A stretch of DNA of 17,659 nt from a bacterium (lineage in GTDB: Bacteria > Blakebacterota > Blakebacteria > Blakebacterales > Blakebacteraceae): NCBI GenBank assembly GCA_025774205.1, contig JALGWK010000087.1:1-17659 (forward strand), given 5' to 3'. Of the stretch, positions 257 through 16,766 are shown one piece after another. Below the pieces are notes generated by a model. The model was not told the origin of the DNA. It saw only the letters and a program-made list of their open reading frames with translations, and ran no database searches. The translations under genes were made by a program, and so were the position numbers. Numbering within the stretch: the first letter of the stretch is position 1; every line of letters begins with the position of its first letter.

Positions 257-260
257 TCAG

Positions 261-370
261 GGTTCACTCCGATCCCGGCTATCCTTGAACAGAAGCTGCC
301 GGGTGTTTCCTCCGGGGTTCACTCCGATCCCGGCTATCCTTGAACAGAAGCTGCCGGGTGTTTCCTCCGA
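261..370. repeat. 55-bp tandem duplication at the amidohydrolase 3' end
   Basis: Copies at 261-315 and 316-370 are identical except for the last base. The unit is 1 mod 3, so it shifts the frame of the minus-strand amidohydrolase. With one copy the protein would end after Pro334 at a TGA at 257-259; with two copies it continues for 11 unrelated residues to a TAG at 279-281. The second copy lies exactly where the frame changes. Confidence 0.95.
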
Positions 371-1316
371 GGATGGCGGTCTTCTCCGACTCCGGGATAT
401 CGAGGGATTGGATACTCTCCACCATTGAACTGAGACTGCCGATCATGTGAGGGTAATCGCTGCCGGCCAGCAGTTGACTCGATCCGGCGAACTCGATGGC
501 GAGTCGGAGAGCGTTCGGATCAAAGTTGACCGTATCGAAGTAGAATTGCTTCAGCTGCTCACTCGGGAGCTGACTGATATGTTCCCGGCACTCTTCGTAG
601 GCGTGGTAACCTCGATCGAGCCGTTCAGCCAGGTAGGGGATGGCACCGCCCAGATGCGCGAGGACCCATGATATCGAGGGAAACCGCTCAACGATCCCGC
701 TGAAGACCAGACCGGCTGCTGCCAGGGTAGTGTCGAAAGTGAATCCGACCAGCGGCATCAGCCAGAACTCTGTCATTGCTTCGACTCCGACCGGGTGGAT
801 CGGGTGGATGTACAAAACCGCGCCCAGCTGGTCAGCCCTCTCGTACAGCGGCAGGAATGACTCATGATGGAGAGGAGTGCCGTTGACATTGCTGTAGAGC
901 ATTACTCCACCCATTTCCAGCTCGAGCATCACCCGTTCCAGCTCTGTAACAGCGGCCGAGGGATTGTTCAGAGGCAGAGTGCCGAGCGCGCTGAAGCGAT
1001 CTGGATGTTCCTGCATTGTTTTCGCGAAGGAGTCGTTCACGATCCGGGCCAGATCTGCCGATTGAGCCGGAGGAGAGAGGTGAGTGCCGGGTGAGGTGAG
1101 GGAGAGGATCTGCATGTCGATCCCCGTCTCCTGCAGCACCTCCACTCTGCGGGAAATGTCCCAATGCCCGGGAACCGCCACATTGTAGTCACCCGGTGAG
1201 TGGAGCACAGGATTTCCATCCGCGTCATCGGTGACTTTGACCGCGCCCTGTTCTGCCCTGAGCGCCTCGATGTACTCGGGCGGGTAGTGATGGTTGTGGA
1301 AGTCGATGATATTCAC
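279..1316 (-). CDS. ACMSD-type amidohydrolase (Amidohydro_2)
   Basis: A TIM-barrel, metal-dependent amidohydrolase of the aminocarboxymuconate-semialdehyde decarboxylase / gamma-resorcylate decarboxylase superfamily; it probably hydrolyses or decarboxylates a small carboxylated substrate in the cytoplasm. Visible metal and active-site signatures are the N-terminal HxH (H7, H9), H171 in the IHP segment, H221 in AHLGG and D287 in GSDYPH. The start is GTG at 1314-1316, directly followed by the metal-binding strand. It begins 4 nt after the permease stop, so the two are probably co-transcribed and the permease may import its substrate or a precursor. Residues 335-345 come from the 55-bp tandem duplication and are not family sequence; the ancestral protein would be 334 aa. 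The catalytic core is intact, so activity may be retained. Exact substrate unknown. Confidence 0.88.
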   Translation of the reverse strand: MNIIDFHNHHYPPEYIEALRAEQGAVKVTDDADGNPVLHSPGDYNVAVPGHWDISRRVEVLQETGIDMQILSLTSPGTHLSPPAQSADLARIVNDSFAKTMQEHPDRFSALGTLPLNNPSAAVTELERVMLELEMGGVMLYSNVNGTPLHHESFLPLYERADQLGAVLYIHPIHPVGVEAMTEFWLMPLVGFTFDTTLAAAGLVFSGIVERFPSISWVLAHLGGAIPYLAERLDRGYHAYEECREHISQLPSEQLKQFYFDTVNFDPNALRLAIEFAGSSQLLAGSDYPHMIGSLSSMVESIQSLDIPESEKTAILGGNTRQLLFKDSRDRSEPRRKHPAASVQG

Positions 1317-1320
1317 GGAG

Positions 1321-2652
1321 TCAATCCCTTCTTGAACGGGAAGGCCTGATCCAGAGCGCGTAGGCCGGCAGGCCGATCAACACGAGTCCCAATCCGAAGC
1401 TGCTCTCTACGGGATCGGATAGTATCTGATTCAATACAATCGCGGAGGAGGCAAGTACGAACACGCCCGGAATCCACGGGTAGCCCCGAATCCGGTAGGC
1501 GGGGGCATAGTCCGGTCTCTGACGCAGGAGAATGAGTCCTGCTGCCATCATCGCAAAGAAGATCCATTCTGTATATACAACCCTCGTGAAGAGGGCTTCA
1601 TAGGTGTCCGTGGCCACCAGTACCGATGACCAGATCGCCTGCGCGATAATGGCCTTCGAGGGAGTTTTGAACCGGGGATGGACGGCCCCCATCCAGGAGA
1701 AGATCAATCCGTCCCGGGCCATGGAATAGTAGACCCGCGGTCCGGCCAGGATGATCCCGCTCAGCGCCCCGAAGGTTGAGAAGATCACGAGCGCGGACAT
1801 CAATGACGAACCACCGCGGCCCAATACCGCATCAGCGGCGTCAGCGGCGACTCTGGTTGAGGAGATAACCGTCTCGAGGGGCAGGACATGCATGTAGACA
1901 GCGTTCATCGCAAGGTAGCAGGCCGTCACAATCAGGGTCCCGATCAGGAGGGCGCGCGGGATCGTCCGTTCCGGCCTGATGGTCTCCTCGGCCGCATAGG
2001 TCACCATGTGCCACCCACCGAAAGCGAAGAGTCCGGCGACCAGGGCAAGGCCGAGATTACTCAGAGTGAATGAACCGGTGGAGGCGGGATCAGGCTGCGT
2101 TATCGATGAGCCGATCGTGCCGGCGGGCTCACCGATCGTGAACCCCACGATAATGATCGCCACGATCGCCACGATCTTGCCGAGAGTAAAAGCTGTCTGC
2201 AGGGTACTGCCCTGGCGGACCCCGAAATAATTGACCATCGAGAGCAGGAGTATCCCCAGGATCGCGACGGCCTGGATCGCGATGTCGTTCATGGGAATGA
2301 AGTGGGCGGTGTAACGGGCGAACACGACCGCAATGGCGGCTATGATGCCGGAGTGCATGCTCCAGAACATCGCCCAGCCCCACAGGAATCCGACCGGGGA
2401 GGAATAAGATTCCTTCAGAAAGACATAGACCCCGCCTGTGCGGGGAAAGGCCGAGGCCAGCTCGGCTGCGACGAGGGCTCCGAAGAGGGTCAGGATCCCG
2501 GCCAGAACCCAGACCAGGTAGACTCCCGCAGAACTCGGGACCTGACTCGTGATGAGTGAGGGCTGGACAAAGATCGAGGCGCCGATGATGGTTCCCACGA
2601 CCATCGCGGTAGCCCGGGTGAGACCTATAGATCTCTTCAGATCACTGGACAT
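1321..2652 (-). CDS. APC-family amino-acid permease
   Basis: A 443-residue integral inner-membrane transporter with about 12 hydrophobic helices. Helix 1 carries the glycine-rich substrate-binding stretch GTIIGASIF (about 20-28). It is followed by the conserved AELASAFPRTGG (about 63-74) and the helix-6 signature FGGWHMVTYAAEE...P.RTIPRA (about 211-234), typical of APC/LAT-like (AA_permease_2) carriers. It is expected to take up or exchange an amino acid or related amine; the substrate cannot be read from sequence. The ATG at 2650-2652 has a GAAGGA-type ribosome binding site just upstream. It is first in a two-gene unit with the amidohydrolase. A perfect 9-bp tandem repeat (2155-2172) encodes part of an IVAIVAI helix segment and keeps the frame. 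Confidence 0.9.
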   Translation of the reverse strand: MSSDLKRSIGLTRATAMVVGTIIGASIFVQPSLITSQVPSSAGVYLVWVLAGILTLFGALVAAELASAFPRTGGVYVFLKESYSSPVGFLWGWAMFWSMHSGIIAAIAVVFARYTAHFIPMNDIAIQAVAILGILLLSMVNYFGVRQGSTLQTAFTLGKIVAIVAIIIVGFTIGEPAGTIGSSITQPDPASTGSFTLSNLGLALVAGLFAFGGWHMVTYAAEETIRPERTIPRALLIGTLIVTACYLAMNAVYMHVLPLETVISSTRVAADAADAVLGRGGSSLMSALVIFSTFGALSGIILAGPRVYYSMARDGLIFSWMGAVHPRFKTPSKAIIAQAIWSSVLVATDTYEALFTRVVYTEWIFFAMMAAGLILLRQRPDYAPAYRIRGYPWIPGVFVLASSAIVLNQILSDPVESSFGLGLVLIGLPAYALWIRPSRSRRD

Positions 2653-2757
2653 CGTTCCTTCATCACTACCTGTTGAACGGGGACGCTCTCATAATGGCAC
2701 GACCATACCGGATGGCAGATGATCCGGAAAGTGGAAGCCGGTAGCGTAGGTTCTGGT

Positions 2758-2763
2758 TATAAT
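2758..2763 (+). promoter_or_regulatory. TATAAT -10 element
   Basis: A perfect TATAAT with a TG two bases farther upstream than the extended -10 position. No good -35 at 16-18 bp spacing is visible. A transcript starting near 2770 would exclude the upstream ATG at 2719 and favour the TTG at 2809 as start of the lipoprotein. Confidence 0.35.
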
Positions 2764-2808
2764 CCCGACTGTGGGGTTGACGAAGTATTATGCCATGGTG
2801 GTGAAGCC

Positions 2809-3564
2809 TTGACAGAGATCGCCCGACTCTTCAGATCCGTCTCCGCGGGGGCTATCCTCCTTCTGATCGTATTCTCCTTCGCCGGATGCGGTAATGGTGG
2901 CCCTTCAGATCCCGGACTCGACCAGAACGATCCCGATTTTCTCTTCGAAGAACTGTTCAATACCATCCCTGACGGCGGTCTGCCATCCGGCTGGGTGTTC
3001 ATGACGCAGGGTGCGGCCACCCTGGAGGGACCGGGTGAATGGTCGGTGGAAGGGGGCACCCTCCATCAGGCGTCCAACGTCCAGGCGCCGCCCACTCCCG
3101 GACTGCCCTACGCCGCCAACTATGAAGGGACGATGGCGATCTACGATGAGGAGTCCTGGATCAACATCGCCTTCAGCGCCGATCTGATTCCCCGGGACGA
3201 CGACGGAATCGGTGTGATCTTCCGCTGGCAGGAATCTGCGGTGAGCGATGACGGCAACTTCTATCGTTTCATGATGGTGAAGGATCAGATCTCCGGCGGT
3301 CCCCGCATCCGGATCGACCGCCACATCGACGGGGTCTGGACCGTGCTGGCCGAGGATCTCTCAGAAGAGTACGGCTATGACGAGAACGCGACCTACCGGG
3401 TCACCGTCGAGGTGGCGCTGACGCAGATCACGGTGAAACTCGACGGCGAGATCCTGTTCGACCTGCTCGATTCGAGCCTCTCGAGCGGCAGGATAGGGTT
3501 CTTCTGCTATGCCGAGGAAGGGGCCGACTTCGATAACATCACGGTCTATCGACGCGGCCCCTGA
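2809..3564 (+). CDS. Lipoprotein with concanavalin/LamG-like domain
   Basis: The frame is open from an ATG at 2719. The TTG at 2809 gives a clean lipoprotein signal peptide: a charged N-terminus, a hydrophobic core and the lipobox Phe-Ala-Gly-Cys, with Cys about 27 residues in. The perfect TATAAT at 2758-2763 also supports 2809. After a Gly/Asp-rich linker, the remaining ~200 residues look like a jelly-roll of the concanavalin A-like / DUF1080 type. Clues are the strands DDGIGVIFRW and FYRFMMV, then DGVWTVLAE, YRVTVEV, VKLDGEILFD, and the typical ending SGRIGFFCYAEEGADFDNITVY. Such domains bind or process carbohydrate or serve as surface adhesion modules; no catalytic residues can be assigned. 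It is anchored in a membrane by the lipid. The gene is monocistronic, divergent from the permease and convergent with the transglutaminase 30 nt downstream. Confidence 0.8.
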   Translation: MTEIARLFRSVSAGAILLLIVFSFAGCGNGGPSDPGLDQNDPDFLFEELFNTIPDGGLPSGWVFMTQGAATLEGPGEWSVEGGTLHQASNVQAPPTPGLPYAANYEGTMAIYDEESWINIAFSADLIPRDDDGIGVIFRWQESAVSDDGNFYRFMMVKDQISGGPRIRIDRHIDGVWTVLAEDLSEEYGYDENATYRVTVEVALTQITVKLDGEILFDLLDSSLSSGRIGFFCYAEEGADFDNITVYRRGP

Positions 3565-3594
3565 TCGAAATACCGGCAAGGCTGAGATTCAGGG

Positions 3595-4016
3595 TCAGCG
3601 ACCCCCTCCCGACAACCGATAGTCGAGTATCTCCAGTTCGGTCGGATTGAAGGTAGTCAGCAGGCCGAACCTGATATGGCCTGAATCGAGGTAATCGCTC
3701 TCCTGGAAGGTGCAGTCGACCGGAACCCAGCCCGCCTCGCCCATCCATACCTCATTCCAGCCGTGTTGTCCGAAGGAGCCGTCCATGATGGTGGTATAGG
3801 CTCCCCCCGTCACCATCCGGGCCGGGATCCCGACCGCCCGGCAGAATGCCGCCAGGAGTCGGGAATGGGCTCCGCATTCTCCCGAACCCTTGTCGAAGGT
3901 CTGGCGAGCGCTGCCGCCCGGGAGAGCGCCGGCTATCTCCGTCCCCACCCACCGGGAGAGCCTTACGGCGGCGTCCCAGCTGTCGCGCGAGCCGCGTCCC
4001 AGCTGTCGCGCGAGCC
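3595..4016 (-). CDS. Transglutaminase core, C-terminal fragment
   Basis: This is the third frame, supported from the duplication to the TGA at 3595-3597. It contains the complete Cys-His-Asp set of the transglutaminase core and ends in LDYRLSGGGR. The open frame extends upstream to about 4455, but that part is a shadow of the middle fragment. I see no credible start codon for it. Confidence 0.7.
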
Positions 4017-4475
4017 GTCCGTGATCTCTCGCGCTTTCGCAACCAGCACGGGATCGTCCGATTCGATCATCCAGCCCGGATCGAGGAACGGTTGCAGTTC
4101 TTCGATTTCGGAATAGTCGCTCGGGAAGGGGGGTGCGTCCTCTCCTGAGTAGCGCGGATGTTCGATCTCGAAGATCCCCTCGATCAGGTTGTCGGTCACG
4201 GTCCCCTCGAAGCTCTGGCCGGGGACATTGAGGGCTTCGACGGTGATGACCTCGCCGGTGGTCCTGACCTCGGCCCTGACTTTCATATACCCGATCGAGG
4301 TGCTTTCCTCGATCAGCACTCCGGTCTCGGCGAGGATGTAGCTGTTCAGGTCGACGCGGCGCATCCGGTTGCGGATCGAGCGGTCGCTGAGGTAGATCAC
4401 CGTCCCGTCCGCACTGGCGCTCCGGATCATGGTGCCATCGGACCGGTCGAACCACATCTGGCCGGTGACACCCAT
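3963..4475 (-). CDS. Transglutaminase-like protein, middle fragment
   Basis: It continues the same protein in another frame from about GQMWFDRSDG. The ATG at 4473-4475 may be only an internal codon. The fragment reads beta-rich sequence up to DGSRDSWDAA. It then runs out of frame inside the 23-bp duplication and stops at TAA 3963-3965. It has no catalytic residues of its own. Confidence 0.6.
   Translation of the reverse strand: MGVTGQMWFDRSDGTMIRSASADGTVIYLSDRSIRNRMRRVDLNSYILAETGVLIEESTSIGYMKVRAEVRTTGEVITVEALNVPGQSFEGTVTDNLIEGIFEIEHPRYSGEDAPPFPSDYSEIEELQPFLDPGWMIESDDPVLVAKAREITDGSRDSWDAARATAGTPP
3971..4016. repeat. 23-bp tandem duplication
   Basis: Two exact copies, 3971-3993 and 3994-4016, beginning GCGTCCCAGCTG. 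The unit is 2 mod 3 and breaks the transglutaminase frame; deleting one copy restores it. Confidence 0.97.
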
Positions 4476-5053
4476 CGACAGGTGTACTCCCGTCCTTCCA
4501 GGATCAGGGTCGTCTCGCCCTCGGCAGTGTAGTCACGGGTGAGGATGTTGCCCAGGAAGGGGTCGAGCTGCCGATAGGTCGCGGTCGCGCCGATCTCGGG
4601 GCCCGGATTGACTATCAGGGCGTCAGCGAGCTTCCCTTCATCGATGATCAGACCCTCATCGACGGGGATCTCACGCGTCACACCATCCGGCATGGTGATG
4701 TGATGGAGAACCGATCCCTCACGCACGAAACTGGCGCCAGCAATCGAACCTCCGGTGTTGGTCTCCAACTCGACGGAGAGGACCCTGCCATCCGACGCAT
4801 CGGTCTTCTGGACCATCACGATCGTTGCATCGAGCGGATATCCCAGTAGGGAGAAGACCATCCTGCCCTCGGACCTGGTCGTAATCGGTATTCCTCTGGC
4901 GGAGTCTCCCGGGGTGGTGCTGGCGGCATTAAAGCCGACCAGTTGACCGTCGAGTTCGATCGCGTACCAGTAGATTTCCTGTGGCTCGGAGGAACAGGCC
5001 GGACTGAACAGGATTGCCAGGAAGAGGAACGCGGCAGTGGGGAGACGTCTCAT
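4427..5053 (-). CDS. Transglutaminase-like lipoprotein, N-terminal fragment
   Basis: The start is ATG at 5051-5053, preceded by an in-frame TTG. GGAAAG about 9 nt upstream is the best ribosome binding site. The signal peptide ends in Ser-Pro-Ala-Cys, an imperfect lipobox that still looks functional. The following ~170 residues are a beta-rich region (IYWYAIELDGQLVGF, TLILEGREY) typical of the N-terminal part of transglutaminase-like exported proteins. The last ~16 residues, after about 4485, are out of frame and unrelated. Confidence 0.7.
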   Translation of the reverse strand: MRRLPTAAFLFLAILFSPACSSEPQEIYWYAIELDGQLVGFNAASTTPGDSARGIPITTRSEGRMVFSLLGYPLDATIVMVQKTDASDGRVLSVELETNTGGSIAGASFVREGSVLHHITMPDGVTREIPVDEGLIIDEGKLADALIVNPGPEIGATATYRQLDPFLGNILTRDYTAEGETTLILEGREYTCRWVSPARCGSTGPMAP

Positions 5054-5135
5054 CAAGGTTTTCTTTCCAGGGTACGGGCCGGAACGGTTCTGGAGGCTGT
5101 ACGTGGGAACGGAGTCAGATATTCAACCCAATCGG

Positions 5136-6104
5136 TCAGCGCAGTCCGGGGATCCGGCGCAGCAACTTGAGGAGAAAGCGGAGGAGGCGGTGAAATCTCT
5201 CCTCGGTCATACCCCGGGGGGTGCCGATCGGAAGCAGGCGCTGAACGGCAATCGACCGGTTCTCGGTGAACTTCATGATCCCGGCGGCGCCGTGTCGGCG
5301 TCCAAGGCCGGAGGCCTTGTATCCCCCCTGGCTCAGGTCAGCCGATCCCCAGGTGGCGCGATGGGAATCGTTGACGTTGACGGAACCGGCCTCGAGTCGG
5401 GAGGCGATCCGCAGGCCTGCCCCGGTGTCACCGGTCCAGAGGGAAGCGCTCAGACCGTACGGACTGGCGTTGGCCAGTTCCACCGCCTCGTCGGTCGAGG
5501 TGAAGGAATAGATACTGACTACCGGCCCGAAGGTCTCTTCCTCGTAAAGGAGCATGCTCTCGGTGACGTCGGTCAGGATCGTCGGCTCGAAGAAGAGGGG
5601 GCCGAGATCGGGACGAGTATTTCCCCCGGTGAGAATGGTCGCGCCGCGTTCGACCGCGTCCCCGACGTGGAGGATGGCTTTGTCGAGCTGTCCCTGGGAG
5701 ATGAGGGTGCCGAGATCGAACTGGTAGTCGAGCGAGGCGCCCATCCTGATCTGGCCGGTCTCCTCGACGAAAGTTCTCGTGAACTCATCCCGCACCGATT
5801 CATGGACATAGATCCGTTCGATGGAGACGCAGACCTGTCCCGCGGAGGCGAAACAGTCCCAGACGGCGACCCGGGCCGCCCTCGCCAGGTCGGCGTCGGG
5901 GAGGACGATCATGGCGTTCTTCCCGCCCAGTTCCATCGAGCAGCCGATCAGGTGCTCGCCGACCTGGCTGGCCAGCAGGCGTCCGGTGGCGGTGCTGCCC
6001 GTGAAGGCGAGGTAGTCGACCTGGTCAATGAGGGGGCCGGCCAGCTCGGGGCCCCGGCCGGTGACGATCTGGCAGAGGTCGGCCGGCAGGCAGTCCGGCC
6101 TCAT
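5136..6104 (-). CDS. Aldehyde dehydrogenase, catalytic C-terminal fragment
   Basis: Third frame. True family sequence starts at LPADLCQIVTG. It holds the NAD-binding FTGSTATGR, the general base E58 in MELGGK and nucleophile C92 (fragment numbering), and ends RRIPGLR at TGA 5136-5138. The fragment alone lacks the N-terminal half of the cofactor fold, so it would not be expected to be active. Confidence 0.8.
   Translation of the reverse strand: MRPDCLPADLCQIVTGRGPELAGPLIDQVDYLAFTGSTATGRLLASQVGEHLIGCSMELGGKNAMIVLPDADLARAARVAVWDCFASAGQVCVSIERIYVHESVRDEFTRTFVEETGQIRMGASLDYQFDLGTLISQGQLDKAILHVGDAVERGATILTGGNTRPDLGPLFFEPTILTDVTESMLLYEEETFGPVVSIYSFTSTDEAVELANASPYGLSASLWTGDTGAGLRIASRLEAGSVNVNDSHRATWGSADLSQGGYKASGLGRRHGAAGIMKFTENRSIAVQRLLPIGTPRGMTEERFHRLLRFLLKLLRRIPGLR
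6085..6093. repeat. 4-bp tandem duplication (GGCA)2
   Basis: GGCAGGCAG on the plus strand. One extra GGCA accounts exactly for the second frame break in the aldehyde dehydrogenase. Confidence 0.85.
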
Positions 6105-6427
6105 CGAGGAGTTCCGCCCCGAGCAGGGAAGTGAAGGGAGCCTGCCGGTCAGGTTTCACAATGACGGCATTGCCTGCCATGAGGGCAGCCAGCGTGTCAG
6201 AGATCGTGAGGATGAGCGGGAAGTTCCATGGTGAGATGAACCCGACCACACCGACGGGCGGAAACTGTTCAATCGCCCGGGTCAGGAGGGGGTAGAGGCC
6301 TTTGCGCCGCCTCGGCCGCAGGTGACGACGCCCGTGCAGGGCATAGTAACGGGCCTGGATGGCGAGGTCGCAGACCTCCTCGAAGGCGTGGCCGCGCGCC
6401 TTGCCGTTCTCGAGCTGGATGAGATGA
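6085..6427 (-). CDS. Aldehyde dehydrogenase, middle fragment
   Basis: Second frame, supported from [15 protein letters not shown] through the cofactor-binding GVVGFISPWNFPL and NAVIVKP to LLDEAGLPA. Here the GGCA duplication throws it out of frame. The frame stays open on both sides (6025-6936), but those extensions are shadows. Confidence 0.7.
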
Positions 6428-6710
6428 GATCGAGGAACTCCTCCTGGTGATCCCAGACCAGATCGTGGAGGCGGAGCAGGATCCTGCTCCGATCCCGAAG
6501 GGAGCGTTCCCTCCAGTGGCGCTGGGCCTCCCTGGCCCGGCGGACCGCCTCGACGACATCCGCAGCGATACCCATCGGCAGGGTCCCGAGGGGCTCGCCG
6601 GTGAAGGGGCTCTGGACCGTGAACGGTTCCCGAATATCGCCGGACAGGGTGACCCGTCGAGCCAGTCGATCGAGGAACGCCCGGTCGATGGTGGCGGATT
6701 TCTCGATCAT
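6282..6710 (-). CDS. Aldehyde dehydrogenase, N-terminal fragment
   Basis: ATG at 6708-6710, in ATGA overlap with the cyclophilin stop. It reads the aldehyde dehydrogenase N-terminus ([31 protein letters not shown]) up to the GATGA repeat. About 45 out-of-frame residues follow to the stop at 6282. Confidence 0.75.
6418..6430. repeat. 5-bp tandem duplication (GATGA)2
   Basis: GATGAGATGAGAT on the plus strand. One extra GATGA accounts exactly for the first frame break in the aldehyde dehydrogenase. Confidence 0.85.
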
Positions 6711-9223: not shown

Positions 9224-9314
9224 CATGACATTGAAGACACCTCCATCAGAAGGTTACCATGACTGCTCCGGTAGAGATCCGATGATCGAATCCTTTTGCA
9301 AGGGGCCAGGTCCG

Positions 9315-10904
9315 ATGAGAACCATGAGAACGATCTCCCTGATGACGCTGTTCCTTCTCACCCTCGGCGGAACATCAGCGAGAGCGCAGGATATCCACGA
9401 TACCCGTCTCCTCTCTCAGCCGGCGGTGAGCGCCGACCAGATCGCCTTCGAGTACGCCGGCGATCTCTGGGTCGCCGCCCTGGACGGCTCCGATGTGCGC
9501 CGCCTGACGAGCCATGTCGGCACCGAAGCCAGTCCCCGGTTCTCACCCGACGGGAGCCTGATAGCCTTCACAGCGCAGTATGAGGGCAATTCCGATGTCT
9601 ACCTCGTGCCGGTCGAGGGCGGAGTTCCACGTCGGCTCACCTGGCATCCGGGGGCGGACGTGGTTCAGGGCTTCACACCCGACGGCGGGGCGGTGCTCTT
9701 CCGGTCGTCACGGGCGGTGTTCACCAATCGTTTCTCACAGCTCTTCACCATCCCGGTGGAGGGAGGCCATCCGGAACAGCTCCCCATCCCGAACGCGTAC
9801 AAGGCGACCTATTCATCTGATGGCCGGATGATGGCCTACACTCCCCTCGGGGAGCGATTCGGGCAATGGAAGAACTACCGTGGCGGGACAGTGTCGAGGA
9901 TCTGGCTCTACAACACGCGCAATCACGACGTCGAACAGATTCCCCAGCCGGAGGGCAGGTGCAACGATACTGACCCGATGTGGTTCGACGGCACAGTCTG
10001 GTTCCGTTCCGATCGGAATGGCGAATTCAACCTCTTCTCTTATAACCCCCGCTCCCGGAACGTGACCCAGCTCACCACCTTCGATGACTTCCCGGTCATG
10101 AGCGCCTCCTCCGGAGGGGGGCGGATCATTTTCGAGCAGGCGGGCTACCTCCATCTCTTCGATCCCGGTTCCGGAAGCAGCTCGAAACTGACCATCGGCG
10201 TCGCCACCGACCTGGGAGATGAGCGGCCCCGCTATGCCGGCGGCTCCAACTTCATCCGCAACGCCGACATCTCACCCTCGGGAGCCCGGGCGGTCTTCGA
10301 GTTCCGCGGCGAGATCGTCACGGTGCCGGCCGAAGAGGGTGACCATCGCCAGCTCACCTCGACCTCGGGCGCCCACGAGCGCTCGCCTGTCTGGTCGCCC
10401 GATGGATCTTCGATCGCCTGGTTCTCCGACGCCTCGGGTGAATATGAACTGCATATCTCGCCCCAGGACGGCCGTGGTGAAGTTCGTACCTTCCCCGTTC
10501 AGGGGGCAGGATTCTTCGAGGACCCGGTCTGGTCACCGGACGGGACGAGGATCAGTTTTACCGACAACTCGTGGTCGCTCTACATCCTCGAGGTGAAATC
10601 GGGACAGGTGAAGAAGATCGCCTCGGAGGTGCTCTACGGACCGGTGAAACTGCTCCACCACGCCTGGTCGCCCGATTCACGGTGGCTGGCCTACACCCTT
10701 TACACCAGGGCGTACTTCCAGCAGGTCTATCTCTATTCCGTGGAGGGTGGCGCATCCCACACGATCACCGATGGCCTGAGCGACGTCACCGAACCTACGC
10801 AGCTGGTTCGCGATGTCGAACGCCGACATGGAGATGAACAACGCTCTCTACCTGGCCGTGCTGCCGAAAGGCGAGCGGTCCCCCCTGGCCCGGGAGAGCG
10901 ATGA
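9315..10904 (+). CDS. Tricorn-like protease, N-terminal propeller fragment
   Basis: The first part of a secreted bacterial tricorn-type serine protease. A Sec signal peptide (cleavage about after ARA, residue 24) is followed by repeated beta-propeller blades with recurring SPDG motifs (ASPRFSPDG, SPVWSPDG, EDPVWSPDG, HHAWSPDS). These blades form the two propellers that gate substrate entry. ATG at 9315 has AAGGGG upstream; an in-frame ATG at 9282 is less likely. True family sequence ends near codon 10797 (DGLSDVTEP). From there this frame is a shadow running to 10904. At the joint about 22 expected residues are missing (the stretch around DGKYLYF...STDAGP in relatives), with a change of frame. 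The N-terminus contains a 9-bp near-perfect tandem repeat, ATGAGAACC/ATGAGAACG. Confidence 0.85.
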   Translation: MRTMRTISLMTLFLLTLGGTSARAQDIHDTRLLSQPAVSADQIAFEYAGDLWVAALDGSDVRRLTSHVGTEASPRFSPDGSLIAFTAQYEGNSDVYLVPVEGGVPRRLTWHPGADVVQGFTPDGGAVLFRSSRAVFTNRFSQLFTIPVEGGHPEQLPIPNAYKATYSSDGRMMAYTPLGERFGQWKNYRGGTVSRIWLYNTRNHDVEQIPQPEGRCNDTDPMWFDGTVWFRSDRNGEFNLFSYNPRSRNVTQLTTFDDFPVMSASSGGGRIIFEQAGYLHLFDPGSGSSSKLTIGVATDLGDERPRYAGGSNFIRNADISPSGARAVFEFRGEIVTVPAEEGDHRQLTSTSGAHERSPVWSPDGSSIAWFSDASGEYELHISPQDGRGEVRTFPVQGAGFFEDPVWSPDGTRISFTDNSWSLYILEVKSGQVKKIASEVLYGPVKLLHHAWSPDSRWLAYTLYTRAYFQQVYLYSVEGGASHTITDGLSDVTEPTQLVRDVERRHGDEQRSLPGRAAERRAVPPGPGER

Positions 10905-12501
10905 GGAGGTCTCCGGCGAGGAGCCGGACGGCGGGCAGACAGGGGAGGAGGGGGATGATGAGAGCAGGGTCGTCATCGATTTCGACGGTCTCGAGCAGAG
11001 GATCCTCGCCCTGCCGCTCGGCTCGGCTCTCTATTTCGACCTGCAGGCCGGTCCCGAGGGGCAGCTCTACTACCTCAAGCGCGAGGAGGGGCGGGGGACC
11101 AGCCTGCGCCGGTTCGATCTCGACGAGCGGGAGGAGACCACCCTGCTTGAGAGCTGTACCTCCTATACCCTCTCGGCGAACCGGAAGAAGGTGCTCGTCC
11201 GAAGCGGCAGCAACTGGATGATCGCGAACGCCGGTGGAACAATCGCTCCCGGCTCCGGCCGGATATCGGCCGACCGGATCGAGGTCCGTGTCGAGCCCCG
11301 TCAGGAATGGGAGCAGATCTTCAACGAGGCGTGGCGGATCAACCGCGACTGGTTCTATGACCCGAACATGCACGGCGTAGACTGGCCGGCGATGCGTGAG
11401 AAATACCAGATCTTCCTGGCCGACTGTGTGACCCGTACCCAGCTGAACACGATCATTCGCTGGATGTGTTCGGAGGTGTCGGTCGGCCATCATCGGGTGG
11501 GGGGCGGTGATTTCCCCGAACGCGCAAAGACGGTCCCCGGGGGACTGCTGGGGGCTGATTTCACCGTCGAGCGGGGCCGCTATCGCTTCGCGAAGATCTA
11601 CGGCGGACTCAACTGGAACCAGAACCTCAGATCCCCCCTCACCGAACCGGGGGTGGACGTGCAGGAAGGGGAGTACCTGCTGGCCGTGGAGGGGGTGGAG
11701 CTCAGGTCTCCGGAGAACCTCTACCAGCGGTTCGAGAACACCGCCGGCCGGATGATCGAGATGACGGTAGCGTCAGATCCGAATGGCCGGAATGCCCGCA
11801 CCGTGAAGGTCGTGCCGGTGGCGAACGAGTCCGCCCTGAGAAATCGTGACTGGGTGGAGGGGAACCTCCGTCACGTGACGGAGGCCACCGCCGGACGGGT
11901 GGCGTACACCTACGTGCCCAATACGTCGACCCTTGGACACACCTACTTCAAACGGTACTTCTACCCCCAGACCGACCGGGAGGCGATCATCGTCGATGAA
12001 CGGTTCAACGGCGGCGGCTCGGTAGCGGACTACTACATAGACCTGCTGCGCCGTCCCGAGATCTGCTACTGGGCGATGCGGTACGGTGAGGACCTGCCAA
12101 CGCCCCTGGGAGCGATCCAGGGTCCTAAAGTGATGATCATCGATGAGACGGCCGGCTCCGGAGGTGACCTTCTGCCCTGGATGTGGCGCAAGCTCGAGAT
12201 GGGACCGCTCGTCGGGAAGCGGACCTGGGGGGGGCTGGTCGGCACTCTCGGGTTCCCGATCCTGCTCGATGGGGGGAGCGTGTCGGCGCCCAACCTGGCT
12301 ATCTGGACCGAAGAGGGCTTCATCGTCGAAAATGTGGGCGTTCCGCCCGATATCGAGGTGGAGCAGTTACCCGCCGATGTCATCGCGGGCCGTGATCCAC
12401 AGCTCGAACGGGCCATCGAGGAGGCGCTGAGGATGCTGGAGGACGATCCGGTCACTATTCCGGTCAGGCCTCCCTTCCCGATCAGGATCTGGAGGTATTG
12501 A
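10813..12501 (+). CDS. Tricorn-like protease, catalytic C-terminal fragment
   Basis: Family sequence resumes at SWFAMSNADMEM from about 10801; the ATG at 10813 is the Met of that motif and probably not a natural start. An acidic Gly/Glu linker (about 28-51) is followed by the C1 domain (EAWRINRDWFYDPNMHGVDW), a PDZ domain (about 240-335) and the C2 catalytic domain. Residues matching the tricorn catalytic set are H226 in VGHHRVGGGD, nucleophile S449 in ETAGSGGD and E506 in FIVENVGVPPDI. Such enzymes cut peptides in the periplasm or outside the cell. All catalytic parts are intact, but without a start and signal peptide this fragment could not be exported as it stands. The stop at 12499-12501 is 2 nt before the M14 start. 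Confidence 0.87.
   Translation: MSNADMEMNNALYLAVLPKGERSPLARESDEEVSGEEPDGGQTGEEGDDESRVVIDFDGLEQRILALPLGSALYFDLQAGPEGQLYYLKREEGRGTSLRRFDLDEREETTLLESCTSYTLSANRKKVLVRSGSNWMIANAGGTIAPGSGRISADRIEVRVEPRQEWEQIFNEAWRINRDWFYDPNMHGVDWPAMREKYQIFLADCVTRTQLNTIIRWMCSEVSVGHHRVGGGDFPERAKTVPGGLLGADFTVERGRYRFAKIYGGLNWNQNLRSPLTEPGVDVQEGEYLLAVEGVELRSPENLYQRFENTAGRMIEMTVASDPNGRNARTVKVVPVANESALRNRDWVEGNLRHVTEATAGRVAYTYVPNTSTLGHTYFKRYFYPQTDREAIIVDERFNGGGSVADYYIDLLRRPEICYWAMRYGEDLPTPLGAIQGPKVMIIDETAGSGGDLLPWMWRKLEMGPLVGKRTWGGLVGTLGFPILLDGGSVSAPNLAIWTEEGFIVENVGVPPDIEVEQLPADVIAGRDPQLERAIEEALRMLEDDPVTIPVRPPFPIRIWRY
12491..12496 (+). promoter_or_regulatory. GGAGGT ribosome binding site deciding the M14 start
   Basis: A perfect anti-Shine-Dalgarno complement within the last codons of the tricorn gene. 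It lies 7 nt before GTG 12504 but only 1 nt before TTG 12498, so GTG 12504 is the better start. Confidence 0.75.
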
Positions 12502-12503
12502 GG

Positions 12504-13832
12504 GTGAGGATTGCGAAACTGATAGCCCGGCCGGTGATGATCATGGCGCTGGCCGTGACAGGGTGCGCCCACACTGCTCCCTCTCCTGGCAGCGAGGGCG
12601 AGGCCATCGTACCGGCGGCGGTGACCCGGATGTTCGACCGGGGTCTCGCTGTCGCCGATGAGTATCGGGTCACCACCATACGGGAGCGACGCTTCACCCA
12701 TGAGCAGCTCTGGACCACGCTCGCCCCTCTGGTGGACCTGGAGGCCTTCACGGTGCGGGAGGAGGGCCGCTCCCTCCAGGGTCGTTCGATCATGACCGTC
12801 ACCTTCGGAGAGGGACCGGTCACGGTCCTGCTCTGGTCCCAGATGCATGGGGATGAATCGACCGCGACCATGGCCCTGACGGATATGATCCGATTCCTCG
12901 GTGAAGCGACCTCCGATCCTCTCCGGAACCGTCTCAGGGAAGAACTCACGATCGTGATGATCCCGATGCTCAATCCGGACGGCGCGAAGCGTTTCCAGCG
13001 CCGGAATGCCATCGGGGTCGACATCAACCGTGACGCCCGGCGGCTGGCGACTCCGGAGGCCCGGATACTGAAAAGGGTCAGGGATCGAGTCGACGCCGAT
13101 TACGGCTTCAATCTTCACGACCAGAATCCGCATACCCAGGCCGGACGGGAAGGGCCGCGAGCCGCGATCGCGCTGCTGGCGCCGGCCGCCGATATCGAAC
13201 GGAGCTGGGGCAGGACGCGATCACGCGCGCGCCTGGTCGCTTCAGCCATCGCCGGGGCCCTGCAGTCCGGGATACCGGGCCGGGTAGCCCGTTACGGGGA
13301 TGCCTTCAATCCCCGGGCTTTCGGCGATTTGATGCAACAGTGGGGCACGAGTACCGTTCTGATAGAGAGCGGGGTGCTGGACGATGATCCCGAGAAACAG
13401 CAGCTCAGGGCCCTGAACGTGGCTGCTCTGCTGATGTCTCTCGATCTGATCGCGAGCGATGGGCTCAGCATCGTGAACGGGGTCTGGTATGATCGTCTGC
13501 CCCCCAATCGGGGATTCACGCACGACCTGCTGGTGCGGGGGGGCTCCCTCATCCTGGCGGGCAGCGGACCGATACGGGTGGACATGGCTTTCGCCTGGGA
13601 GGATGGTGTCGACAGGACGAGGCTGGTGTTGAGCGAAATGGGCGATCTGGAGGATGAGTACGCGCTCGAGGTCATCGACGCGACCGGCCTCTACATCCAC
13701 CCGGAGGTCCCATTCCTTTCATTTGATTCATCAGGTGCGTGGCTATTCCTGGATATGGAGGCGGTCATCACCCTGCGCAGAGGCCCGGATCGCGCAAGCG
13801 AGCCGGTGATGAGAATCGGTGGAAATCGATGA
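12504..13832 (+). CDS. M14-family zinc carboxypeptidase lipoprotein
   Basis: From GTG 12504 the protein has 442 residues and a lipoprotein signal ending Val-Thr-Gly-Cys (Cys21). The M14 fold is shown by the zinc motif HGDE (H115, E118), NPDG then DINRDARR (substrate Asn-Arg), the third ligand His in GFNLHDQN (H205) and the catalytic Glu in TVLIESG (E288). It would trim C-terminal residues or small peptides in the periplasm, a logical partner of the tricorn protease that directly precedes it. About 130 C-terminal residues after the catalytic domain are beta-rich with no assigned function. It overlaps the next gene by 14 nt. Confidence 0.88.
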   Translation: MRIAKLIARPVMIMALAVTGCAHTAPSPGSEGEAIVPAAVTRMFDRGLAVADEYRVTTIRERRFTHEQLWTTLAPLVDLEAFTVREEGRSLQGRSIMTVTFGEGPVTVLLWSQMHGDESTATMALTDMIRFLGEATSDPLRNRLREELTIVMIPMLNPDGAKRFQRRNAIGVDINRDARRLATPEARILKRVRDRVDADYGFNLHDQNPHTQAGREGPRAAIALLAPAADIERSWGRTRSRARLVASAIAGALQSGIPGRVARYGDAFNPRAFGDLMQQWGTSTVLIESGVLDDDPEKQQLRALNVAALLMSLDLIASDGLSIVNGVWYDRLPPNRGFTHDLLVRGGSLILAGSGPIRVDMAFAWEDGVDRTRLVLSEMGDLEDEYALEVIDATGLYIHPEVPFLSFDSSGAWLFLDMEAVITLRRGPDRASEPVMRIGGNR

Positions 13833-15627
13833 TTTCATCATAGAGATGGCCCGGGCCTTCCAGCGGTACGGCATGTACCCTGATGGTCACCCATCCCGTC
13901 TCACTACTGCCGCCGAGATCCTGGAGCTCCTCACCGGACTCATCGGAGACCGTGGCGAACTGACCATCCAGGTCACCGGGGACTTTCTGCAGGTCGGTGA
14001 CCAGGAGACCGATGAGAAGAACTCCTCGGCTGTCAACGTAGCCAGACGACTCCACCAGCATCAGCTCCACGTGGTCAACTTTCTCGTGGGGGTCACCGTT
14101 GAGGAACTCGATGGCCTGCTAGGGATTATCTCGGTGCAGGTGGGCAAGAGCATGGGGGAGCCGTTCGGGGCTTCTCCCCGTGAAGAGCTCGAGCAATGGT
14201 CGCACATTACCCTCCAGCGGACGCCGTACGACGCGCTCCGGCTCTCGGAGGGTACAGATGAATTCGATGATGATCGCCCCGACTCCGGGACCGGAGGAGG
14301 AGCGGGGGAAGAGGATCGGGGCGGTTCAGGCGCCGCGAGTGAACTCAGATTACAGATCGCGAAACTGGTCGAGAACCTCGATCCAGCGGCCCGACAGAAA
14401 TTGCTGAAGATGTTCCAGACCCTGCTGAACGCGACGGGGGTTGATGGCTCCCACGACCTGGCGGTTATGAAACTGGTGGAAATGACCAGGAAGGGCAAGA
14501 GCAAGCAGGCCGCCACCATGCTCGGTATCCTCTCGAAGATCGGCAAGCAGATGGGAGCGTCCGATCCGGACGGGCCCGCGATCGCTCCAGGACCGATCCT
14601 GGGCGCGCTGATCGGGCATCTGTCGGATGAGGGGCCGGTCGCCGAGGAGGCCGGACAGGCCGAGACTCCGGAATGGATCGGAGAGATCGAAGCCGGGCGG
14701 GTGCTCCAGATGAGCGTTGAACTGCGGGAGATGAATCCATCCACCAGGACTCGCCTCACAGAGATCGTGACAACGGGGGACATCGGCACCCTTGCCGATC
14801 TGCTCACGCGGGTGCCGGAAGGGAATCCCGTCACGACTGAGATCGTCGCCTGGCTCGAGAAGCCGAAGAATATGCAGAAACTGCTGAGCAGCGAGACTCT
14901 CGACCTCCCCGGCCTAGAACCCTTCCTGGCCCTGGTAGGCACCGCAGCCATCGGTCCGATGCTCGATCTCCTGGCAAGGTCTGAGGACGAGGGCACCCGC
15001 CGGGAACTCATCGAACGGCTGACTCAATACGGTGATCAGCTCTATCCGCTCGTCATGGAGCGGATCGATAACCCCCGGTGGGAGGTTCGGAGTGACCTGC
15101 TGACCATCCTGGGCAGTATGAAACTTCTGCCGGAGGGTTTCTCGGCATCGACCTGGTATCTGGACGATGATAAGGGGGTTCGTCTCCAGGCGCTGAGGCT
15201 AGGTCTCGCCCGGGGCGAGGACCGGGGCAAACTGCTTCTGACGGCTCTGCGCGATCCCGATGATGAGAACGCTGCCTTCGGTCTCAAAGAGACGAAAAAG
15301 GAGTGTCCGCCGGAAACCGCGGGTCAGATCATCGAAATGGCGTTGAATGGCCGGGAGACGTCCGGCGTCCGGATCAACTGCATCAGGGCGATGGCCGGGC
15401 TCGATGATCCCGGTGTACTCGGAGCCCTGCTGTCCCTGACATGGCAGAGTCGGGCGCTCATCACCCATACCCTGGCACCCAAGACACAGGAGATGCTGGA
15501 GAGCCTGGCCGTTCTCGCCTCCCGGTTCGCGGGTGATCCGAAGGCGAAGGCGGTCCTGAAGGCAGCCCGGGCATCGAAGGACGCCCAGATCAGGGCAGTG
15601 GCAGGCGGGAAGAAGGAATCGTCGTGA
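13819..15627 (+). CDS. HEAT-repeat protein with shared N-terminal domain
   Basis: 602 residues from GTG 13819, overlapping the M14 end by 14 nt. Residues 1-~110 form an alpha/beta domain containing ARAFQRYGMYPDGHPSR, a strand pair TIQVTGDFLQV, a helix ARRL and VNFLVGVTVEELDGLL. The same plan occurs in the next gene. A low-complexity Gly/Asp/Glu linker (about 150-175) precedes a helical region. The C-terminal ~250 residues show HEAT-like helix pairs (LEPFLALVGTAAIGPMLDLL, YPLVMERIDNPRWEVRSDLL), a scaffold for protein binding. No signal peptide or membrane helix is present, so it is cytoplasmic. It ends in GTGA overlap with the HD-GYP gene. Inference: a scaffold or regulator acting with the HD-GYP protein. 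Confidence 0.8.
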   Translation: MEIDDFIIEMARAFQRYGMYPDGHPSRLTTAAEILELLTGLIGDRGELTIQVTGDFLQVGDQETDEKNSSAVNVARRLHQHQLHVVNFLVGVTVEELDGLLGIISVQVGKSMGEPFGASPREELEQWSHITLQRTPYDALRLSEGTDEFDDDRPDSGTGGGAGEEDRGGSGAASELRLQIAKLVENLDPAARQKLLKMFQTLLNATGVDGSHDLAVMKLVEMTRKGKSKQAATMLGILSKIGKQMGASDPDGPAIAPGPILGALIGHLSDEGPVAEEAGQAETPEWIGEIEAGRVLQMSVELREMNPSTRTRLTEIVTTGDIGTLADLLTRVPEGNPVTTEIVAWLEKPKNMQKLLSSETLDLPGLEPFLALVGTAAIGPMLDLLARSEDEGTRRELIERLTQYGDQLYPLVMERIDNPRWEVRSDLLTILGSMKLLPEGFSASTWYLDDDKGVRLQALRLGLARGEDRGKLLLTALRDPDDENAAFGLKETKKECPPETAGQIIEMALNGRETSGVRINCIRAMAGLDDPGVLGALLSLTWQSRALITHTLAPKTQEMLESLAVLASRFAGDPKAKAVLKAARASKDAQIRAVAGGKKESS

Positions 15628-16766
15628 GCCTGGCGGTCGACTTTCTCCACGCGCTCGCGCAGGCGCTCTCGACCATCGGTCTCTATTCCGATGAACACCC
15701 CGCCAGAGTCTCGGCCCTCGAGCATCTCCTCGAAATGCTGGAAGCGCTCCTGGCAGAGAACCGGACGCCGACCTTCACCTTCTTCAAGGAAGAGGTGGTC
15801 TATCTCGAGGCGCCGCTCCGGGAACTGAAGGGGTGGGGCCTCTCGAAACGTCTCTCCGAATGCGGGATCGAAAGAATGGAGTTCACGGCCGGGATATCGG
15901 CCGATACCCTCGGGGCCTTCATCGTCGACCTCCATCTCTACCTCATTGACAAGAAGAACCTCGAAGAGGGATCGATCGACACCTTTACCGGTATCAGGTT
16001 CGGTTCGGTCAGCCTCTTCGACGATTCGAGCGGTGGTGAGACTGATCTCGATCTCTACGAGCAGGCGGGGAAGGCCGCCGATCTTTTCGCGGAGGCCCGG
16101 AAGAAGGGTCAAGTTTCGTCCGCGTACTCACGCTCGGTACTCGACTCGATCTGGGCCGCGATGCATGCCGACGAGGAGTTCAGTATCCCGCTCGTGCCTG
16201 TCGAGGCGGGGAACGAACTGGCCCCGATCAGGTCGATGAACACGGCCATGCTGGCGGTGGCGTTCGGACGCTATATGAAACTGAAGGGCTCGGAGATACG
16301 GATGCTGGCCGAAGCAGCGCTCCTGCATGATATCGGCAAGATCATCATTCCCGATGAGATCCTGAACGATACCGGCAGGCTGGATCCGGAGGGCTGGAAG
16401 ATCATAAGGAAACATCCCATTGCGGGAGCGAAGATCCTCATGCGTTCCGGGGAGAGGTTCGAGATGGCCGCGGTCGCCGCCTACGAACATCACCTCGATC
16501 TCGACGGTTCGGGCTACCCGACTCTCACCTATCCCCGTCAGCCGCATCGGGTGAGTCAGGTGGTTCGACTTTGCGACGTCTACGACGCCATGCGTACGAC
16601 ACGCTCCTATGAAAGGGAACAGCCGATGGGGAGGATCATGGAGGTGTTGCGGGGTGGAGCAGGGCAGAAGTTTTCCGGCGAACTGGTGGAACACTTCATC
16701 TCGATGCTGCGGGACTGGGACTCGAAATTCACCCGCGGCGACACCGGTGGGATCGAGCTGATCTGA
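15624..16766 (+). CDS. HD-GYP domain protein with shared N-terminal domain
   Basis: 380 residues; start GTG 15624 overlaps the previous stop (GTGA) with AAGGAA upstream. The N-terminal domain (about 1-110: ALSTIGLYSDEHPAR, FTFFKEEVVYLE, FTAGISADTLGAFI) matches that of the HEAT protein. The C-terminal HD-GYP-type phosphohydrolase domain shows H235-D236 in LLHDIGK, H264 in RKHP, H289-H290, G297-Y298-P299 and D318 in LCDVYDAM. HD-GYP proteins typically hydrolyse cyclic di-GMP. Odd points: the first conserved His of the HD fold is Arg203 (spacing to H235 is exactly the usual 32), and the Glu after the His pair is Leu291. Catalysis may therefore be altered or lost. Cytoplasmic. Last gene of the tricorn operon. 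Confidence 0.87.
   Translation: MSLAVDFLHALAQALSTIGLYSDEHPARVSALEHLLEMLEALLAENRTPTFTFFKEEVVYLEAPLRELKGWGLSKRLSECGIERMEFTAGISADTLGAFIVDLHLYLIDKKNLEEGSIDTFTGIRFGSVSLFDDSSGGETDLDLYEQAGKAADLFAEARKKGQVSSAYSRSVLDSIWAAMHADEEFSIPLVPVEAGNELAPIRSMNTAMLAVAFGRYMKLKGSEIRMLAEAALLHDIGKIIIPDEILNDTGRLDPEGWKIIRKHPIAGAKILMRSGERFEMAAVAAYEHHLDLDGSGYPTLTYPRQPHRVSQVVRLCDVYDAMRTTRSYEREQPMGRIMEVLRGGAGQKFSGELVEHFISMLRDWDSKFTRGDTGGIELI

Follow-up and report, generated by a model that had tools for sequence, protein, structure and literature searches.

Exact tandem duplications in a draft bacterial genome are most likely artefacts of assembly

Exact tandem duplications, some of them breaking genes, recur across the draft genome analysed here and are most likely artefacts of its assembly, a reading to which we assign a probability of roughly 0.86. 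An earlier note on this DNA had described a cluster of frame-breaking duplications and had left two explanations side by side, a mutational signature and unmerged overlaps between assembled pieces. The second is supported by the spread of the duplications through the genome, their clustering near contig ends, repeat units that are blind to codon phase and the deletions that accompany them.

The window, by which we mean the whole 17,659-nt stretch of DNA analysed, is one entire contig (C294) of draft genome G000, which comprises 527 contigs and is ~86% complete. It was compared with G001, a genome of the same genus whose DNA is ~76-78% identical to the window and whose contig L036 is collinear with it, and with G002, a genome from another genus of the same family. 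The family is thinly sampled: three other compared genomes share it, and the next relatives listed share the domain (Bacteria) only. The features of the window discussed below are as follows.

260..369: exact tandem duplication of 55 bp (two copies), lying 259 nt into the contig
279..1316, minus strand: amidohydrolase (PF04909), by family match
3595..5056, minus strand: transglutaminase-like gene in three pieces, with PF01841 in the C-terminal part
3971..4017: exact 23-bp tandem duplication in two copies, breaking the transglutaminase-like gene
4482..4485: GTGT where the frame of the transglutaminase-like gene breaks a second time; which event took place is ambiguous
5136..6710, minus strand: aldehyde dehydrogenase (PF00171), its frame broken twice; one open frame in the same-genus relative
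6085..6092: GGCA twice, exactly +4 bp relative to the same-genus relative
6418..6430: GATGA 2.6 times, exactly +5 bp relative to the same-genus relative
9296..12501, plus strand: tricorn-like protease gene, split by a 59-bp deletion
10795..10798: loss of 59 bp that breaks the frame; 2 bp in the window, 61 bp in two relatives

The plus-strand gene at 9296..12501 is presumably tricorn-like, a name suggested by its domain order. Further along the same strand are two adjoining genes (13819-16766). One encodes a 602-aa protein that matches no NCBIfam family, the other an HD-type phosphodiesterase of 380 aa (HDIG match); the starts of the two look alike by eye.

All five repeats named in the earlier note (55, 23, 5, 4 and 2 bp) exist in the deposited sequence. 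The 4-, 5- and 23-bp repeats are confirmed as insertions that the compared relatives lack; the claim of that note that removal of one copy restores the family sequence at each of four frame breaks fails for the 55-bp repeat. When aligned to the window, L036 is shorter by exactly 4 bp at 6085 and by exactly 5 bp at 6418, and it carries the aldehyde dehydrogenase as an uninterrupted frame of 544 codons. Chance alone yields many tandem 2-, 4- and 5-mers, and the 4- and 5-bp repeats count only because this relative does not carry the extra copy. The transglutaminase-like gene is absent from the collinear G001 locus, and a tblastn search with a piece of it against plasmids returned no match. A more distant homologue (L214) is without the 23-bp extra copy and has the pieces flanking the duplication in one frame, while another homologue (L216) has the N- and C-terminal pieces of the gene in one frame. 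Because relatives without the extra copy keep the frame, the 4-, 5- and 23-bp events are, on comparison of sequences, frame-breaking and private as far as the compared relatives go. The 2-bp GT pair is ambiguous, since other events of 1 or 2 bp are possible as well.

Contrary to the earlier note, the 55-bp duplication leaves the body of the amidohydrolase unbroken and changes only its last ~11 residues. With two copies the protein ends in ...RSEPRRKHPAASVQG before the stop and with one copy in ...RSEP; the relative's amidohydrolase stops earlier, at ...RLLF, and consequently there is no conserved tail, and no family sequence, to restore at this site. In unrelated loci totalling 468 kb no exact tandem unit of at least 20 bp was seen, so neither the 55-bp nor the 23-bp duplication is a product of chance.

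The frame breaks of this genome are not a class made up of duplications only, since deletions break frames too. At 10795-10798 the window has 2 bp where G001 and G002 both hold 61 bp, a net loss of 59 bp that breaks the frame of the tricorn-like gene and that was overlooked on first reading. Elsewhere in the draft genome, a 10-bp deletion at L159:1589 breaks a frame that G001 keeps open over 1138 codons, and a 29-bp deletion at L038:1574 is likewise frame-breaking relative to G001. Indels relative to G001 are too noisy at 75-80% identity to be taken as a whole; those kept were isolated, uncompensated and flanked on both sides by codon periodicity. The idea of a signature specific to duplications, put forward in the earlier note, fails on these three deletions.

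An excess of tandem duplications was also found beyond the window. In a census of samples, restricted to exact tandem duplications with a unit of at least 20 bp, 18 turned up in this genome (464 kb, 58 contigs), 4 in G001 (383 kb) and none either in two same-family genomes (98 kb) or in other loci (468 kb); the 18 thus stand against 0 in 566 kb outside the genus. Three rows come from one repeat-protein gene, on L128; without them the comparison is 15 for the 464 kb of this genome and 4 for the remaining 949 kb (P = 5e-5). The units range from 21 to 66 bp, are mostly present in two copies and have nearly flush ends. Once repeat-protein genes are left out, the unit length is divisible by three in 5 of 15 cases, which is the share expected without any effect of codon phase. 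The assembler's k-mer was considered as the source of the unit length (e.g., 55) and rejected, as the units extend from 21 to 66 bp with no preferred length. The gain in open frame on a one-copy reading was informative for some duplications only, because the GC-rich DNA of this genome has many long spurious frames.

Some repeats in the genome are of another kind. The arrays at L128:7939-8197 (units of 54, 27 and 21 bp) and L127:2349-2531 (18-bp units) are in frame and seem to belong to genuine repeat proteins; they do not have the look of join errors. At L050:3102 lies a near-exact (97%) tandem duplication with a unit of 104, the longest seen in this genome, which stops only 16 nt short of a contig end.

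The duplications lie close to contig ends more often than expected. Eight of the 18 are less than 500 nt from an end (expected, 12%; P = 6e-4), and the association persists when the window is left out (7 of 16 within 500 nt; P = 0.0015). The end distances of the eight are 220, 222, 233, 241, 259, 329, 345 and 374 nt, none being below 150 nt. The rate in the band from 150 to 400 nt is 286/Mb, against 24/Mb in the interior, beyond 700 nt (P = 5e-6 for the band, an optimistic value in that the band was picked from the same data). Half of the duplications (9 of 18) are interior, at over 700 nt from the nearest contig end.

This positional pattern bears most directly on the alternative that the duplications record a real mutational process of the lineage, in which end joining with fill-in, or else slippage during replication, would have turned the broken genes into null alleles only recently. 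A mutational signature should be independent of contig boundaries, and the duplications are not: biology offers no reason for clustering at 220-374 nt from contig ends, and assembly should halt right at a polymorphic duplication, not 200-400 nt away from it. New mutational events would be expected to be exact and two-copy, as these are, and deletions similar in size are also present; against this, the units are phase-blind, and a search for the Ku gene (PF02735), for which Bacillus subtilis served as a working positive control, found no match in this genome, which is, however, only ~86% complete. The four exact duplications in G001, compared with none in the 566 kb outside the genus (P = 0.03), also speak for such a process, although they may reflect either the same study and pipeline or a genus that is somewhat duplication-prone. 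We regard a mutational process as unlikely. Slightly less likely again is its Ku-independent form, in which exact tandem duplications of 20-66 bp, and deletions as well, would arise often in the genus and the clustering at ends would come in part from assembly stopping near polymorphic regions.

Two further readings are very improbable. Phase-variable elements that switch genes on and off could take the form of short direct repeats within coding frames, yet the repeats here have two copies only, with unrelated units of arbitrary length, they are absent from the tested relatives, the genes are ordinary enzymes, and slippage cannot switch a 59-bp deletion. Old pseudogenes in a decaying genome would account for several frame breaks in adjoining genes, but most breaks are flanked on either side by codon-periodic substitutions, and identity to an intact relative is 76-78%.

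An assembly artefact most likely fits these observations better than a mutational process does. What would mark a misjoin was found together: exact two-copy duplications of unconstrained length that are absent from relatives, tied to contig ends and blind to codon phase. When pieces were joined or extended, a short stretch common to two neighbours, from a few bp to 66 bp, would sometimes have been kept twice, and the same operation would sometimes have lost a stretch, giving the deletions of 10-59 bp. A short-read assembler may have introduced these changes while joining pieces or extending them locally. The distance of the duplications from the ends is about that of one paired-read insert, and the simplest account is a step that used paired reads to extend or join contig ends. 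Internal cases such as 3971, 6085 and 6418 would then be former ends of pieces, an extra assumption that the nine duplications more than 700 nt from an end require. The affected genes are probably intact in the organism, about which the duplications would then reveal little.

If this reading is right, gene breaks in draft genomes of this sort should not be counted as pseudogenes or as a mutational signature, and a check is available that needs no reads: exact two-copy tandem repeats can be listed together with their distance to contig ends. If it is wrong, the lineage would have an unusual duplication process that is worth study.

Among known systems, Ku/LigD end joining would likewise leave small duplications and deletions of varied length as scars, but it offers no explanation for the clustering at contig ends, and Ku is without a match in this genome. 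Scaffolders such as SOAPdenovo2 and similar programs place gaps inside overlapping contigs (PMC5368935), an error that is likewise tied to contig ends and overlaps; gaps and false variant calls are what is reported there, whereas the present case is one of exact tandem duplications within a finished sequence. Chen et al. 2020 (Genome Research, PMC7111523) found that local errors are frequent in metagenome assemblies and, if uncorrected, lead to incorrect gene sequences in databases; they described duplicate sequence at joins with overlapping flanks in IDBA-UD and CLC assemblies. Ns separate the copies in those cases, which were seen by read mapping, whereas the copies here have no Ns between them and were recognized from sequence alone. 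The two have in common a duplicate where neighbouring pieces overlap, wrong gene sequences as the outcome, and short-read drafts as the setting.
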